From the NCBI RefSeq assembly GCF_041435095.1, contig NZ_CP108025.1:4278001-4342000 (forward strand): a stretch of 64,000 nt of DNA. Direction: 5' to 3'. Source of the DNA: Kitasatospora sp. NBC_00315. GTDB taxonomy: Bacteria > Actinomycetota > Actinomycetes > Streptomycetales > Streptomycetaceae. This document shows, one piece after another, positions 2,066-23,825 of this stretch; positions within the stretch are counted from its first letter, which is position 1, and every line of letters starts with the position of its first letter. A program made the position numbers and the translations under genes. The notes under the pieces are model-generated. The model made no database searches. It saw nothing but the letters and a program-made list of their open reading frames with translations, and had not been told where the DNA came from.

Positions 2066-3178
2066 TCAGGGAAGGTCGGGTCCGCCTGCCTTCGCGAGTT
2101 CGGCGAGGACGCTGATCGGCTTGTCAGCGGAGTCCACGTCGTCCTCGTCGGTGTCGAGGAACGAACCGGAAGTCTCCTCGTCGCTGAGGTGCGGGTACTT
2201 CTCGATGAGGAACCGGCGCCGGTAGGCCATGTCAGCGGTGTCGACGATCCGCTCCAGCATGGACCAATTGAGGGTGCTGCCCACGAGGATCCCGACTCCG
2301 GGAACGACCTTGCCGAGGCCCTTCTTGGTGAGGCGTATGCCGAATGCCCGGGCGAACTGCACGGAGACCCTGGTGACCACGGACTCGCTCAGGACATCCC
2401 ACGTCTTGCCTCGCACGAGTGCCTGGGTGAGCCGGGATATGTCGCCCATCGCGGCGGTCTTGGCGGAGGCCGACACCGCCGTACCGGCGTTGACCACGGA
2501 CATCACGAACAGCTTCTCGGCGGGCGATTCGGGGTCGTAGCCGTAGAACAGCGACACATGGCCGACCACCCGGGACGCCAGTCCGAGGACGATCGCGGCG
2601 TCGCCGGCGAGGGCGCCCACGATCATGCCTCCCGAGGGCGCTGCCGCAGCCCCTGCGGATGCGGCGACGACCAGCTCCCCGCCCGAGATCACCAGCCCCG
2701 CCGTCGCTCCCGACAGCGCTGCGGCGGCCGGGTAGTACCAACTGGCCGCGCGTCCCCGCGCCGCGTCAATCTGCTCCAGGTCGAGTCGGCGAAGGTCGAC
2801 CAGCGACGACACGTCGTGACCGCGCTTCTGATGGTGCTTCACCACCCGTGCGGGCGTCAGCCCCGCTCGCGACAGCCGCCCCACTGTCTGCCGGGTGGAC
2901 TGGACGACCGTGCCGCTCCAGTCGGGCAGTGCGTCGGTGGCACCGCGCGCGGCGGTGCCCGCCTTCTGGGCGCCCTTGGCGACGATCTCCTGTCCGCGCG
3001 TCACTGCGGAGAGGGCCCGGGGGTAGCTCTCCAGCCGTTTGACCGCGCGCCTGCCGAGTTTCGCTGCGCCGACGGCCAGTTGCTCACCGGCCTCGCCCAT
3101 CCTCCGGGATAGCGGGCGGCCCTTGAAACGCTGGATGTCACTCCACGCTTCGAGCTCGTAGTCCGAGGGTTCAGTCAC
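2066..3178 (-). CDS. EcsC family protein
   Basis: A 370-residue protein when started at GTG 3178 (VTEPSDYELEAW). The frame stays open upstream, but the additional 59 residues have no family character. It fits the EcsC family (PF12787): an N-terminal acidic-aromatic start (ELEAWSDIQRFK), a long Ala/Gly-rich hydrophobic segment at about residues 150-212, and the block GYDPESPAEK at about 213-222, followed by VNAGTAVSASAKTAA. EcsC proteins are associated with membranes and their biochemical role is poorly defined. The gene is transcribed towards the recombinase remnant. A small ORF lies divergently upstream. Confidence 0.75.
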   Translation of the reverse strand: MTEPSDYELEAWSDIQRFKGRPLSRRMGEAGEQLAVGAAKLGRRAVKRLESYPRALSAVTRGQEIVAKGAQKAGTAARGATDALPDWSGTVVQSTRQTVGRLSRAGLTPARVVKHHQKRGHDVSSLVDLRRLDLEQIDAARGRAASWYYPAAAALSGATAGLVISGGELVVAASAGAAAAPSGGMIVGALAGDAAIVLGLASRVVGHVSLFYGYDPESPAEKLFVMSVVNAGTAVSASAKTAAMGDISRLTQALVRGKTWDVLSESVVTRVSVQFARAFGIRLTKKGLGKVVPGVGILVGSTLNWSMLERIVDTADMAYRRRFLIEKYPHLSDEETSGSFLDTDEDDVDSADKPISVLAELAKAGGPDLP

Positions 3179-18804: not shown

Positions 18805-19830
18805 ATGGGTGGGGCTGAGGAGCCGGGTCTCACAGCCAGCGGCCTCGGCCGCCTGTCGCCCGAAGCCCGCGCTCTGTACAAGGCCGCCGTGCAGGCACAC
18901 GGTCGGCTGATTCCCGCCGAGGGCGATGTCAACGAGGACGGCCATCTGCGCGAACTGGTCGACATCGGCCTGCTCGTGCCCGACGTGGAGGATCCCGGCA
19001 CGCTGATCGCCGTCGATCCGAAACTGCTCTCCGCCGGGCTCAGCGCGGCCTGGCAGCGCAGGGCCCTGGAGCTGCTGAGCCGGGCGGTCGCGCTGCCGGC
19101 GGACTTCCAGGAGCTCAGCCAGGCGTACGGCCAGGTAGGCAGGGGTTCCGAGGCCGGTGGGCCGGTGGAGCACCTGCACGGCAAGACCGAGATCAACCAG
19201 CGGCTGGCCGAGCTGATGGAGAGCAGCGCCAAGGAGGTGCTGAGCGCCCAGCCCGGAGGCGGTGCCCGTTCCTTCCCGACCGCGGCGGCGATCGCGCTCG
19301 ACGTCGGCATGCTCCGGCGCGGTGTGTCCCGGCGGACGATCTACCAGCCGAGCACCCGTTACTCGGCGCCGACCCGTGAATACGTCGCCGCGATGACCGA
19401 GGCGGGCGGTGAGGTCCGCACTCTTGCCGAGCCCTTTACCCGCATGATCGTCGTCGACCGCGCCACGGCGATCATCCCGATCAGCGGGGACACCGAGCGG
19501 GCGGCGTTCATCCGGGACGAAGCCGTGATCGGCTTCTTCGTCAGCCTCTTCGAGAGCTGCTGGGAGCGGGCCATCCCATTTCAGGGGGGTCACGAGGTGC
19601 CGCCCGAGGTGCTCTCCAGATTGCGGGAGAACATTCTCCGAATGATGTTGCAGGGCGTCGGGCACCGTGTGATCGCGCGCAACCTCGGGCTCAGTGAGCG
19701 CACGCTGGCGAGGCACATCGCGGACCTGCGTGAGGAGTACGCCGCAGAGACGCTCTTCCAGCTCGGCTGGAAGCTGTCGGAGAGTCATCGTGCGCTGCCG
19801 TTGTTCGGCAGCGACGACGACTCCGAATAA
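18805..19830 (+). CDS. LuxR-type HTH regulator with TrmB/PLD-like sensor domain (paralogue 1)
   Basis: 341 residues from ATG 18805, with AAGGAG upstream. The N-terminal part (SPEARALYKAAVQAHGRLIP, then LRELVDIGLLVPD) resembles a TrmB-like winged helix. The central part (TIYQPSTRYSAPTREYVAAM, EVRTLAEPFTRMIVVDRATA) is the PLD-like sensor found in many streptomycete regulators. The C-terminal HTH reads VIARNLGLSERTLARHIADL, LuxR-like. It is clearly homologous along its whole length to the minus-strand gene at 21353-22330. It converges on the small peptide gene at 19839 with an 8-bp gap. Ligand unknown; a peptide or sugar phosphate is possible. Confidence 0.8.
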   Translation: MGGAEEPGLTASGLGRLSPEARALYKAAVQAHGRLIPAEGDVNEDGHLRELVDIGLLVPDVEDPGTLIAVDPKLLSAGLSAAWQRRALELLSRAVALPADFQELSQAYGQVGRGSEAGGPVEHLHGKTEINQRLAELMESSAKEVLSAQPGGGARSFPTAAAIALDVGMLRRGVSRRTIYQPSTRYSAPTREYVAAMTEAGGEVRTLAEPFTRMIVVDRATAIIPISGDTERAAFIRDEAVIGFFVSLFESCWERAIPFQGGHEVPPEVLSRLRENILRMMLQGVGHRVIARNLGLSERTLARHIADLREEYAAETLFQLGWKLSESHRALPLFGSDDDSE

Positions 19831-19838
19831 TCCGGGCC

Positions 19839-20036
19839 TCAGGTCCAGATCACGTCGGCCATCGTGGTGACGGTGGCCTTGCCTGCCACAGGGGGCGCTG
19901 CCGGTGCGGTTGCCGGCTGGGCCTGGGAGCCTTCGGCGCGGGTCCAGATCACATCAGCGTGAACCGGACCCGAACTCAAGAGGACCGCCGCGCCGGCGAG
20001 TATGACCGATGCCACGAAACGGCGCGCGTTGCGCAC
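19839..20036 (-). CDS. Small secreted peptide with duplicated DVIWT motif
   Basis: 65 residues if started at GTG 20036, which has GGGAA about 8 nt upstream. An alternative GTG at 20045 adds MVL. A basic n-region (VRNARR), a hydrophobic core (FVASVILAGAAVLLSSG) and a VHA cleavage site predict Sec export. The mature peptide would be about 38 residues. It starts DVIWTRAEGSQAQ and ends TTMADVIWT, so the same pentapeptide sits at both ends around a Pro/Ala-rich linker. The two DNA copies differ only at two synonymous positions within the ADVIWT codons. No enzyme motif is present. A promoter with good consensus lies upstream. A signalling role is an inference from its regulators next door. Confidence 0.7.
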   Translation of the reverse strand: MRNARRFVASVILAGAAVLLSSGPVHADVIWTRAEGSQAQPATAPAAPPVAGKATVTTMADVIWT

Positions 20037-20102: not shown

Positions 20103-20131
20103 ATTATGGTGCACAACCACGGGCATGTCAG
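20103..20131 (-). promoter_or_regulatory. Predicted promoter of the secreted peptide gene
   Basis: On the minus strand CTGACA (20131-20126) and CATAAT (20108-20103) are separated by exactly 17 bp. This is a good vegetative promoter match in an otherwise GC-rich background, about 65 bp upstream of the start codon. Confidence 0.65.
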
Positions 20132-20207
20132 TGACGCACTCGTCTCACCTGTTCGAGGGCGTGCTCACTCTTCCAGGATCGGGGTATCGATCGGGCGTGT
20201 TCGGCGT

Positions 20208-20236
20208 GTCATCTAACTGCCTGGCAGTGAGATGAC
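20208..20236. promoter_or_regulatory. 29-bp near-perfect palindrome, candidate operator
   Basis: GTCATCTAACTGCC (20208-20221), a central T, and GGCAGTGAGATGAC (20223-20236). The arms match at 13 of 14 positions. It lies in the 400-bp divergent region between the peptide gene and the deoxyribosyltransferase-like gene, upstream of both predicted promoters. No coding or terminator role is apparent. Confidence 0.6.
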
Positions 20237-20443
20237 ACCACGTGCCAGTGGACTCGTCACCGCGCCCGGGGACACGATCAGTGCACCGACCGATCGTTGA
20301 GCGACGAAGCGTCAGCAATCGTCATGCGCACTTCATCTTTTCCATGTTAAACCATGCCCTGTCAACCCCTGAGCATGTTCCGAACAGCCGCTTCGCCCAC
20401 TGGGATATGGCACTCACCCGGTCGGCCTTTCGACGGAGTCGAC

Positions 20444-21070
20444 ATGAATGAGCCCTACCAGCGCGACCACGCCGGCCATGCCCCCGAGGGCCGGCGAGCA
20501 CGCGTGTTCCTCGCCGCGCCGCTGATGCGACTGACCGGGCCGGCGGACAGCGTGGTGACCCTGGCCAGCCGCACCCGCCTCACGACGCTCCGCTCCACGC
20601 TCCTGCGCAGCGGCGCCGCCGTCTACAGCGCGCACCACAGCGACGCCTGGACGGTGGCCGGCCGGGTGCCGGAGCCCCGGGTCCCGTCGGACTTCCGCGC
20701 GCTGCAGACCGCCGACCTCGTCTTCGCGTACGTCGGTGCCCCGCTCAGCGCCGGCGTCAGCCTGGAGCTCGGCTGGGCCTCGGCGCTGCGCAAGCCGGTC
20801 GTCCTGCTGGTGGACGAGGCGATCACGCACAACCCGCTGATCGCCACCATCGAGCAGGTCGCCCCGGTGCTGCCGCTCGTCTTCGACGACACCTGGTCGC
20901 AGGAGGCCCTGCGGCACACCGTCGAGACGGCACTCGACTGGGCCGGCATGGCGCTGTCGCTGCGTGAGGGCTTCTGGACCGCGCCCGGCGAGCAGTTCAC
21001 CATTCCGCGCCAGCAGCCGCCGGCCGTCGGCCCGTTCGACTTCTGGACCACCGGCGCCGCGACCGGCTGA
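20444..21070 (+). CDS. Nucleoside 2-deoxyribosyltransferase-like protein
   Basis: 208 residues from ATG 20444. RVFLAAPLMRL near the N-terminus, FRALQTADLVFAYVGAPLSA and VSLELGWASALRKPVVLLVD match the deoxyribosyltransferase/nucleotide N-hydrolase fold. In that family an acidic residue in the ELG-type segment is catalytic, and ELGWA is present here. It may act on a nucleoside or nucleotide, or be a sensor-like derivative. It is transcribed divergently from the peptide gene and ends before the second regulator, pointing to membership in the same locus. The last about 35 residues are Pro-rich. Confidence 0.65.
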   Translation: MNEPYQRDHAGHAPEGRRARVFLAAPLMRLTGPADSVVTLASRTRLTTLRSTLLRSGAAVYSAHHSDAWTVAGRVPEPRVPSDFRALQTADLVFAYVGAPLSAGVSLELGWASALRKPVVLLVDEAITHNPLIATIEQVAPVLPLVFDDTWSQEALRHTVETALDWAGMALSLREGFWTAPGEQFTIPRQQPPAVGPFDFWTTGAATG

Positions 21071-21352: not shown

Positions 21353-22330
21353 TCAGTCACCGCGGCCCCCGCGCATCTGCCAGCCCAGCTGGAAGAGGGT
21401 CTGGGCGCCGTGGCGCTCGCGCAGGCGGGAGATGTGGCCGGCCACGGTGCGCTCGCTGAGGCCCATCCGGGTGGCGACGGCGCGCTGGGTGAGGCCGGAG
21501 GCCAGCAGGCGGCCGACGCGATCGGCGGCGTGGTGGGCGGAGCCCTTCACCCCGGCCGTGTCCCATTCGACGGTCTCGGCGCGGGTCCAGTCGCGTTCGA
21601 ACACGCCGACCAGGAAGGCGACCGCGGCGGGATCGGTCACGAAGGACGCCCGGGTGTGGTCGTCGGCCGCCGGGATGACCGCCACCGTACGGTCGAAGAT
21701 GATCATCCGGTGGAACGCCTCGTCCAGGACGCGGACCTGAGCCCCCTGTGCGGTGACGCGCGAGGCGTAGGCCACCACCGCGGGCTCGGCGAGCACCGAG
21801 GGCTGGTAGAGCGTGCGCAGGGCCCGTCCGCGGCCGAGCAGGGCGAGATCCTGCCGGGTGGCGATCTCCATGGCCGCCGCCGGCCGGTGGCCGGGCTGGA
21901 CGGTGAGCACTTCCTCGGTGCAGTCCGACAGCAGCTGGGTGATCCGGTGGCGGATGTGGGTGTGCCCCTCGATGAGTTCGGAGCTGCCCGGCTGGTCGAG
22001 CCGGCGCGGCACCGCGTCATAGGCCCGGGTGAGGCCGTCCAGGGCGCTGGGGAGGCTCTCGGCGCGGACCAGGAGGCGGGTGGCCTCCGTGCGGAGTTCG
22101 GCGCCCAGACGGTCGCTGACGGCCCGCGGGCTGACGGCCGTGTAGGAGGCGTCCATCGAGTTCGGCATCACCAGGCCGACGTCCACCAGCTGGCGCAGTG
22201 CCGCCTCGTCGGACTCCGTCACCGCCGTGGCCGGCAGTCGCCCGCCCTCGGCCAGGATCGCCAGGTACAGCTGCCGGGCCGTTTCGTCGGGCGTGTCGGT
22301 GCCCGGATCGGCGGTCGGATCCGCAGTCAC
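21353..22330 (-). CDS. LuxR-type HTH regulator with TrmB/PLD-like sensor domain (paralogue 2)
   Basis: 325 residues from GTG 22330, with GGGAG 8 nt upstream. The upstream in-frame extension is Cys/Arg-rich and unlikely. It aligns end to end with the 18805 regulator: LRQLVDVGLVMPN, EVLTVQPGHRPAAAMEIATR, TLYQPSVLAEPAVVAYASRV, QVRVLDEAFHRMIIFDRTVA, and the C-terminal HTH VATRMGLSERTVAGHISRLR followed by ETLFQLGW in paralogue 1 and QTLFQLGW here. Both end in the same LFQLGW segment. The pair brackets the peptide and transferase genes. A 12-bp palindrome lies just upstream (22365-22376), possibly an autoregulatory site. Confidence 0.8.
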   Translation of the reverse strand: MTADPTADPGTDTPDETARQLYLAILAEGGRLPATAVTESDEAALRQLVDVGLVMPNSMDASYTAVSPRAVSDRLGAELRTEATRLLVRAESLPSALDGLTRAYDAVPRRLDQPGSSELIEGHTHIRHRITQLLSDCTEEVLTVQPGHRPAAAMEIATRQDLALLGRGRALRTLYQPSVLAEPAVVAYASRVTAQGAQVRVLDEAFHRMIIFDRTVAVIPAADDHTRASFVTDPAAVAFLVGVFERDWTRAETVEWDTAGVKGSAHHAADRVGRLLASGLTQRAVATRMGLSERTVAGHISRLRERHGAQTLFQLGWQMRGGRGD

Positions 22331-22364
22331 CTCGAACACTCCCTGCCGGATGTACCTCAACGTT

Positions 22365-22376
22365 CGATCATGATCG
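22365..22376. promoter_or_regulatory. 12-bp palindrome upstream of regulator 2
   Basis: CGATCATGATCG, 35 bp upstream of the GTG start. Possible operator. Confidence 0.35.
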
Positions 22377-23825
22377 CAGCAGTGGCGCCGGGGCGCGATC
22401 GCGGTCGCTGCGCCGGCGGCCCCCGAGCGCCCGGGACATGCGGTCGCACGTCCCGCACCCGGGAGCCCGCCGGTGCACACCAGTGCCACAGGCGCTTCCG
22501 GTGAGGCGGAGCAGCAACGCCTCACCGGCTCCGGTTCGGTCGGCCATCACCACACATGGCCTCCCGCCGGCGCTCTCCCCCCTGTGCGCCGGCACGGACG
22601 TACCGGGCGCACCCACGTGAAGAGCAAGTCGCCGGCTTCAGGCTGCGGTTGCCTGGACGACCTGGCGTGAACCCAGCCTCACAGTGTGTCGGCCGGTGAA
22701 CAAGTGGCGTCCGATTGCATGTTTCCGCAAGTGCAGGAACTTGCAGGCGGCCGACGCGGCTTCCAGGTGCGCAATTCGCCGAATTTCAGCCCATTCCGTT
22801 GGTGGGTCCCCGGGGAGTGTCCGCCGACCAAACGGTCATTCGGTGCGGCGGGGCACGACCGACATCATCACCCCCCCTGTCGGAAATCCGCTCCGATCCG
22901 GTGTTCCGGCATCCGATTTCCCGCCGTCCGCCGACCGGGCGGGAGGGGCCGGTGCGAGTGGGCCGGGGAGGGCGGCGGCGCCGCGGTCCGGAGTGTCGCC
23001 GACCGACGGCGGCCGGGATATTCGGTCGCCCGGCCGGATATCCCGGCGGAAAGGGCGGAGGGCGAAAAGCCGTGGCGGCGCCCAGGGGCCGCCACGGCCC
23101 CCGGGCGGGGCGGGAGCAGGGCGCCGGCGCCCCGCGCGGCCGCCGGGCCGGGTCGGGGGCGGCCGGGCCCGGCGGAAGTCCGGCGGCCGGAAGGACTCCC
23201 ATGGGGCGCCCGGCTCCGAGGGTGCGGAGGAAAAGCGAGAATGTATCGGCGATGTGCAGAAATGGTGTCCGCCCAAGACTTCGAGGGTCCGCCCGGGCAT
23301 TCACCACGAGGCTGTGCGGACCGGTCGCCCGCAGCGTTTCGGGTGCTGTCGAATATCGTTCGACCGAAGGCTCTCCGAGCCCCTGCCGGAGAACGGCTCC
23401 CTCGAATCGGCCGTGCGCCGATTCGAGGGAGCCGGCGCGCCCGCTCGGAACGGGTTCGGTGATGACGGACTTCCCATACCGGGCCGCTGCCGTCGACGGA
23501 TTCGGTACCGCGGACCGTTCCGGGGCCGGTGGCCGGTTTCCGACGGACCGTTTCCGACGGACCGCCCGCGGGCCCCGCGGGCCCGCCGGTGTTCCGGGCC
23601 CGCCCGCCCGCGCTCCCGCCCGTGCTCCCGTCCGCGCTCCCGGCCCGTGACCCGGCTCGACCCCGTCACCCGTTCGGGGGAGGCCGGGGGCGACCGTCGC
23701 AACGGACGCCCCGGTGGTGTCGATGTCGCCGGCCCCCGTTCGACGTTCCGGGTAGAGGCCGGCAACGGCCGGACGCGCCGTCCGGACGCCCCGGCGGCGG
23801 ACCCGGAGACCTACGGAGACACGTC
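22377..23825. other. 1.45-kb gene-poor region
   Basis: Several long frames cross it on both strands (for example + 22684 onwards), but all are Arg/Gly/Pro-rich, overlap one another and show no domain. I see no supportable gene. Short internal repeats occur near 23535-23560 and 23600-23650. A strong hairpin lies at 23394-23434. It could hold an untranslated RNA or decayed DNA. Confidence 0.5.
23394..23434. terminator. Strong orphan hairpin
   Basis: CGGCTCCCTCGAATCGG (23394-23410) and CCGATTCGAGGGAGCCG (23418-23434) are perfect 17-bp arms with a 7-nt loop. The stem is as strong as the operon terminators in this window, yet no gene on either side is recognised as its source. Confidence 0.5.

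Follow-up and report, generated by a model that had tools for sequence, protein, structure and literature searches.

The window (the whole 64-kb stretch of DNA that we analysed) holds a small gene for a secreted-type peptide that converges on a regulator gene and diverges from a nucleotide N-glycosidase-like gene, with a palindrome in the divergent interval. A sequence-only reading had pointed to a 65-residue ORF at the position of the peptide gene; the ORF is real, though it lies on the minus strand, which that reading left unsaid, and frame 1 of the plus strand at 19839-20036 does not encode the peptide. The features of the locus, by position in the window, are as follows.

18805..19830, plus strand: regulator 1, TrmB-like with a C-terminal LuxR/NarL-type HTH, the proposed receptor (from sequence, structure model and fold search)
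19839..20036, minus strand: precursor peptide gene, 65 aa from GTG 20036, with an orthologous ORF at 73/73 loci
19842..19856, minus strand: C-terminal DVIWT copy, the candidate mature signal, with this C-terminal placing at 68/73 loci
19857..19940, minus strand: Pro/Ala-rich linker, read from the sequence
19941..19955, minus strand: N-terminal DVIWT copy; N-terminal copies occur in many, not all, relatives
19956..20036, minus strand: predicted Sec signal sequence VRNARRFVASVILAGAAVLLSSGPVHA, with cleavage expected ahead of DVIWT
20103..20131, minus strand: promoter-like site CTGACA-17-CATAAT for the peptide gene, a consensus match only (1 found against 0.1 expected from shuffles)
20207..20237, no strand: 31-bp palindrome TGTCATCTAACTGCCTGGCAGTGAGATGACA, a candidate operator in the interval from which the peptide and N-glycosidase-like genes diverge
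20444..21070, plus strand: nucleotide N-glycosidase-like gene, divergent from the peptide gene, at 72/73 loci
21353..22525 (start tentative), minus strand: regulator 2, a paralogue of regulator 1, with a relative at 20/20 loci

Translation of the minus strand gives VRNARRFVASVILAGAAVLLSSGPVHA, then DVIWT, the linker and ADVIWT before the stop codon, and this bears out the earlier statement that the mature form would open and close with DVIWT. GTG 20036 fits as the start codon by eye, with a GGGAAG ending 8 nt upstream of it, and the alternative in-frame start, GTG 20045, would give 68 aa. The signal sequence has a charged n-region, a hydrophobic stretch and VHA preceding the D; signal peptides were called by eye and by a script rule (charge, hydrophobic stretch, small-X-Ala), and both agree with the one proposed before. 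The two ADVIWT-coding stretches, GCTGATGTGATCTGGACC and GCCGACGTGATCTGGACC, show 2 differences, both synonymous, exactly as the sequence-only reading had it. Among all stop-to-stop segments of 31-159 codons in the 64-kb window, the precursor alone closes with D..W followed by no more than one residue. Its third-position G+C is 0.78, and that of its neighbours 0.87 and 0.96. The peptide has no Pfam or NCBIfam match, in line with the remark that no described family was recognised.

To follow the ORF in other genomes, 61 genomes were searched first. The matches were weak, and six of the loci (L002-L006 and L008) showed small ORFs of like layout with other letters, such as DLIWT, DSVWE, DSAWT and DSHW. 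A wider search took regulator 1 as the anchor in 297 genomes of the family at E below 1e-90. Every one of the 70 Kitasatospora genomes had a match of this level (in one, G188, confined to positions 143-332 of the regulator), as did 3 genomes of a group labelled g25 and 1 Streptomyces genome, G265 (E 4.5e-92). Because a g25 locus (L051) and a Streptacidiphilus sp. locus (L032) share one identical peptide, g25, the sister genus, is probably Streptacidiphilus. A small secreted-type ORF with D-x-x-W, convergent with the regulator gene, was present in 73/73 loci (70 Kitasatospora and 3 of the sister genus); D..W was itself a search criterion for this count, and the control with other residues covered 66 non-Kitasatospora loci only. 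Among eight loci without a first-pass match that were checked by hand, six had the ORF and the remaining two were Streptomyces; regulator 1's two best matches in Streptomyces, that of G265 included, had no D-x-x-W ORF alongside. In a second locus set the ORF was found in 20/20, a set that is not independent of the 73-locus genome set because the two overlap. Recurring in 73/73 orthologous loci, the precursor is a feature beyond chance. Absence of the ORF from related genomes had been named beforehand as evidence against it; the ORF is kept, with its motif, at every one of these 73 loci.

The motif itself was then compared between and within precursors. Of the 73 precursors, 32 have one copy, 27 two, 8 three, 1 four, 1 five, 3 six and 1 seven (the count of L076 takes in one overlapping match, and the motif of L095 was assigned by hand). 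The last copy lies at most 2 residues from the C-terminus in 68/73 precursors, and in the other 5/73 there are 7-28 residues beyond it. Across 71 loci, motif residues 2 and 3 form 40 different combinations. Among the 41 distinct multi-copy precursors, copies of one precursor share both residues in 73.7% of 133 pairs, against 3.5% of 6083 pairs that join copies of different precursors; in a homogeneity test the observed mean was reached in 0/2000 permutations. Comparing copies codon by codon, 414 codons were identical, 73 differed synonymously and 53 non-synonymously. Moreover, of 14 close pairs picked by hand, 13 had dN below dS and in the remaining one the two were about equal. These sequence comparisons identify D-x-x-W, and not DVIWT, as the conserved core of the peptide. 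Thus the motif claimed earlier stands as to D-x-x-W and falls as to its letters, since DVIWT is private to the window species among the sequences read; likewise a motif at both ends describes the window precursor, but some relatives have the C-terminal copy alone and others up to seven. The suggestion of selection on the peptide holds: copies within a precursor agree, species differ, and D-x-x-W is kept at all orthologous loci.

Regulator 1 (341 aa) is convergent with the peptide gene, the two stop codons being 8 bp apart in the window, and the two genes are adjacent with small gaps in 73/73 loci. Sequence comparison matches its positions 43-256 to TrmBL2 (E 2e-4) and 274-311 to a NarL HTH (E 0.013); no TrmB Pfam model was matched at E 0.001. 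The AlphaFold2 model (94-sequence alignment, pLDDT 86.3, pTM 0.66) has a winged helix at 19-69, a helix at 72-112, a PLD-like domain at 121-256 and a C-terminal HTH at 267-328, and shows no membrane segment. Foldseek placed TrmBL2 first (E 1e-13, the global TM being low since the domains are arranged differently), followed by the PLD nuclease Nuc and then by the TrmB sugar-binding domain (E 6e-6); VIA-align of the PLD domain gave Z 14-17. Regulator 2 adjoins the N-glycosidase-like gene, and a D-x-x-W ORF of its own was not found in the window; in several relatives two or three such regulators stand in tandem. The same peptide may thus have a further receptor in regulator 2.

The palindrome was found in 72/73 loci against 0/73 reversed sequences, with 88 sites in total and two sites in 16 loci. 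These 16 (L062, L064, L076, L086, L089-L091, L093-L095, L097, L098 and L100-L103) belong to one group, their paired palindromes are ~70-85 bp apart, and they mostly accompany multi-copy precursors. For 68 of the 73 loci the distance from the palindrome to the annotated start has a median of 132 bp and a range of 87-529 (left out were L059, L063, L072 and L092, with a doubtful start, and L105, without a site). The sigma-70-like promoter stands between the palindrome and the peptide-gene start in the window. At up to 2 mismatches all 70 Kitasatospora genomes have at least one match, and the reversed pattern is matched in 1/70; the window's own genome has a single match at up to 3 mismatches. These counts, taken at thresholds at which weaker sites would escape, do not support a large regulon; among the matches listed, nine genomes have a further site elsewhere. 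The sequence data suggest that the palindrome is an operator, to which regulator 1 would bind. At least 9 Kitasatospora genomes have a second, less exact palindrome next to the gene of another LuxR-type regulator and to an ORF that ends in TWGWG (as in L149-L152, at about base 3000), possibly a sister system with another motif.

The N-glycosidase-like protein matches BlsM (E 2.3e-16) and a CMP/hydroxymethyl-CMP hydrolase (E 6.3e-15), and by these similarities it is classed as a putative BlsM/MilB relative. It may be the output of the system, perhaps adjusting nucleotide pools, which is a guess from the sequence. The gene also adjoins D-x-x-W systems in five other loci (L135, L141, L143, L167 and L168). 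Upstream of regulator 1 lies dnaK-grpE-dnaJ-hspR, and hspR, dnaJ, a regulator 2 relative and the N-glycosidase-like gene are all present in 20/20 loci. We do not claim a role in defence, because PADLOC matched the regulators only weakly and through their HTH, and the N-glycosidase-like protein not at all.

Changes of the motif were then compared with those of the regulator. Parsimony assigned the changes to the branches of a 71-regulator tree (71/73 loci, leaving out L104, whose regulator is truncated or broken, and L105, whose score was below the cut), a tree that was built from the same regulator, and domain-level tests were run with three nulls and six control labels. On branches where residue 2 of the motif changes, the PLD share of regulator changes was 0.474 versus 0.411 expected, a value reached in 0/4000 permutations that were made within strata of branch type and amount of change. 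Under this stratified null the PLD excess also appeared for residue 5 (P 0.005), residue 3 (P 0.04) and any residue (0/4000), and no domain besides PLD was enriched. The earlier null gave P 0.0005 for residue 2, 0.08 for residue 3, 0.004 for residue 5 and 0.001 for residue 2 or 3; here the absolute PLD share on residue-2 branches was 0.235 versus a null mean of 0.243, so the excess is relative to the other domains. Among the controls, the residue directly before the motif gave P 0.97, operator consensus positions P 0.46, the operator spacer P 0.09 and another precursor residue P 0.39, and two were near threshold, namely copy number (P 0.048) and precursor residue 12 (P 0.05). Operator changes showed no coupling with either HTH. 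No single regulator column was significant after correction, and we claim no contact residue because the best column had P 0.002 among 660 tests. The co-variation lends moderate support to the PLD domain as the peptide-binding part of the regulator.

Related systems were also seen elsewhere. Seven relatives of the regulator are encoded in the window's own genome, and besides the window 2 of them neighbour a small D..W ORF: at ~7.73 Mb (L112, G000:C1, 1400-2930) there is a divergent secreted-type ORF MRYTRH...LLPGDPGWG with DPGWG at its C-terminus, and at ~3.98 Mb (L111, G000:C1, 960-1170) there is a divergent secreted-type ORF ending ...DTSWGGGCELPLCKPLN, in which DTSW is followed by GGGCELPLCKPLN. 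From 30 other Streptomycetaceae genomes, 66 loci around related regulators were chosen by hand from those with good scores; two of them, L115 and L181, overlap. D..W occurred in a small secreted-type ORF in 40 of the 66, with at least two copies in 21 and a C-terminal copy in 17; when D was replaced by another residue the counts were at most 13 (any), 2 (multi-copy) and 3 (C-terminal). In 26 of these 66 non-Kitasatospora loci a D..W ORF was not found, and part of the 40 matches, among the single-copy ones, look spurious by eye. Repeats at the related loci include DTGWG, DSGWG, DSTWV, DPGWG and DPVWD, and one Streptomyces locus has about ten DSTW copies. Across 296 genomes of the phylum, the regulator was matched at 1e-30 in 14, of which five lie outside the family, and one of these five had a D..W ORF. 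This one, L191 of G589 from another class of the phylum, matches the regulator at E 9e-88, and its small ORF closes with DTGWD.

Conservation, copy homogeneity, gene linkage, the palindrome, the receptor fold and the domain-level co-variation are sequence-based observations, and what we infer beside them concerns export, trimming, re-import, binding, DNA binding, the sign of the regulation and the output. We consider it probable that the D-x-x-W peptide is an exported, trimmed and re-imported pheromone bound by the adjacent regulator. The small precursor would be exported via Sec, leaving a peptide with a C-terminal D-x-x-W-x and often further copies, and extracellular proteolysis would free a short peptide of about D-x-x-W-x, which would be DVIWT in the window species. 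An oligopeptide permease would bring the freed peptide back into the cell, where it would bind the PLD-like (TrmB-type) domain of regulator 1, with Asp and Trp as common anchors and the middle and last residues as a private code. The liganded regulator would then act at the 31-bp palindrome through its LuxR-type HTH, controlling the peptide gene as feedback and perhaps the divergent N-glycosidase-like gene. A pheromone-receptor pair fits because private, repeated, C-terminal peptides are tied to a regulator with a co-varying ligand domain. The precursor of a short extracellular signal that had been proposed from the window alone is thus supported by conservation, copy homogeneity and co-variation with the sensor domain of the regulator, and the peptide is a putative extracellular signal.

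Other explanations have to be weighed. The peptide could be an extracellular effector (an antimicrobial, a protease inhibitor or a surface or developmental factor), with the regulator answering another ligand. TrmB relatives of known ligand are sugar binders, and a secreted-type precursor with an adjoining regulator and a palindrome upstream of its gene would serve an effector as well; but the motif residues co-vary with the PLD domain of the regulator while the residue before the motif does not, and copies so short and so private to each species do not resemble a conserved effector surface, so that we regard an effector as unlikely. Alternatively, the peptide might not have to leave and re-enter the producer: the regulator could read it inside the cell, monitoring secretion or precursor build-up, for instance. 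The absence of a membrane segment from the regulator 1 model and the adjacent, convergent genes with small gaps agree with such reading, but the repeats lie in the mature part and not in the signal sequence, and the up to seven copies among the 73 precursors and about ten in one Streptomyces locus are hard to explain without proteolytic release; we think it quite unlikely. Multi-core RiPP precursors carry short repeated cores, and cores with a conserved Trp recall them, so the D-x-x-W segment might be a core that is modified to a natural product. We judge this very improbable, as the leader is Sec-type, a modifying-enzyme family was not found among the seven window proteins scanned, and the neighbours that were tested, namely hspR, dnaJ, regulator 2 and the N-glycosidase-like gene, are conserved in 20/20 loci. 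Finally, a chance ORF overlapping regulatory DNA, to which its small size and its third-position G+C below that of the neighbours might point, is in practice refuted by conservation of D..W at 73/73 loci, together with dN below dS in 13/14 pairs and motif homogeneity.

The proposed pheromone system can be compared with those described. The RRNPP(A) members of Firmicutes include Rap-Phr, NprR-NprX, PlcR-PapR and AimR-AimP, and excerpts of two papers (PMC10075063, PMC9765709) supplied the criteria. Like them, the present locus has a small secreted-type propeptide gene adjoining a gene for a cytoplasmic-type regulator of 250-500 aa with a DNA-binding domain, a candidate mature peptide at the extreme C-terminus and private variants that would pair with their own receptor. 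The precursor length (65 aa) is within the propeptide range of 10-100 aa, some relatives being longer, gene adjacency and receptor length (341 aa versus 250-500 aa) also agree; secretion (by Sec or PptAB) is likely. Unlike them, the AlphaFold2 model has a TrmB-type winged helix, a long helix, a PLD-like domain and a LuxR-type HTH, and TPR repeats were not found in it; the D-x-x-W system also occurs in Actinomycetota, its genes are convergent and its D-x-x-W core is fixed. By analogy the system would function like RRNPP quorum sensing, yet it would be no member, because its receptor is TrmB/PLD-type and falls outside the TPR criterion. With the archaeal TrmB/TrmBL2 regulators (3qph, 2f5t, 5box-5bqt) regulator 1 shares the winged helix, the coiled-coil helix and the PLD-like ligand domain. 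It differs from them in an added C-terminal LuxR/NarL HTH and in the proposed ligand, a peptide and not a sugar. Gamma-butyrolactone signalling of Streptomyces is likewise autoregulatory and in the same bacterial family, but its signal is an enzyme-made small molecule and its receptors are TetR-type.

In Streptomyces coelicolor, as described in excerpts of one paper (PMC9640686), BldK imports an oligopeptide and the signal is of 655 Da; an imported oligopeptide is presumed there to signal in Streptomycetaceae, as proposed here. Communication signals of Actinomycetota are typically enzyme-made small molecules in the excerpts of a 2023 survey (PMC10075063), cyclic or modified peptides and gamma-butyrolactones in those of a 2016 review (PMC4748050), and gamma-butyrolactones alone are mentioned for Streptomyces in excerpts of a 2026 review. 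In the open-licence PubMed Central literature we found no description of D-x-x-W peptides or of TrmB-type peptide receptors in Streptomyces, and from its sequence the D-x-x-W system looks like undescribed peptide signalling. Whether it extends to a peptide language of the whole family Streptomycetaceae, with several TrmB/LuxR-type receptors per genome, each with its own D-x-x-W-x pheromone that would be cut from a single- or multi-copy secreted precursor, seems to us evenly balanced.

If true, the proposed pheromone would be encoded, linear and species-private, with a receptor identifiable by sequence, in antibiotic producers, and would define a peptide-sensing role for the TrmB/PLD fold. Its receptors would form a class of peptide-pheromone receptors with no relation to RRNPP, in bacteria for which most known signals are small molecules, and D-x-x-W peptides would be candidates for the oligopeptide signals that are imported via permeases such as BldK. 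Because the ligands can be read from genomes and synthesized, signalling in antibiotic producers would then become directly testable.
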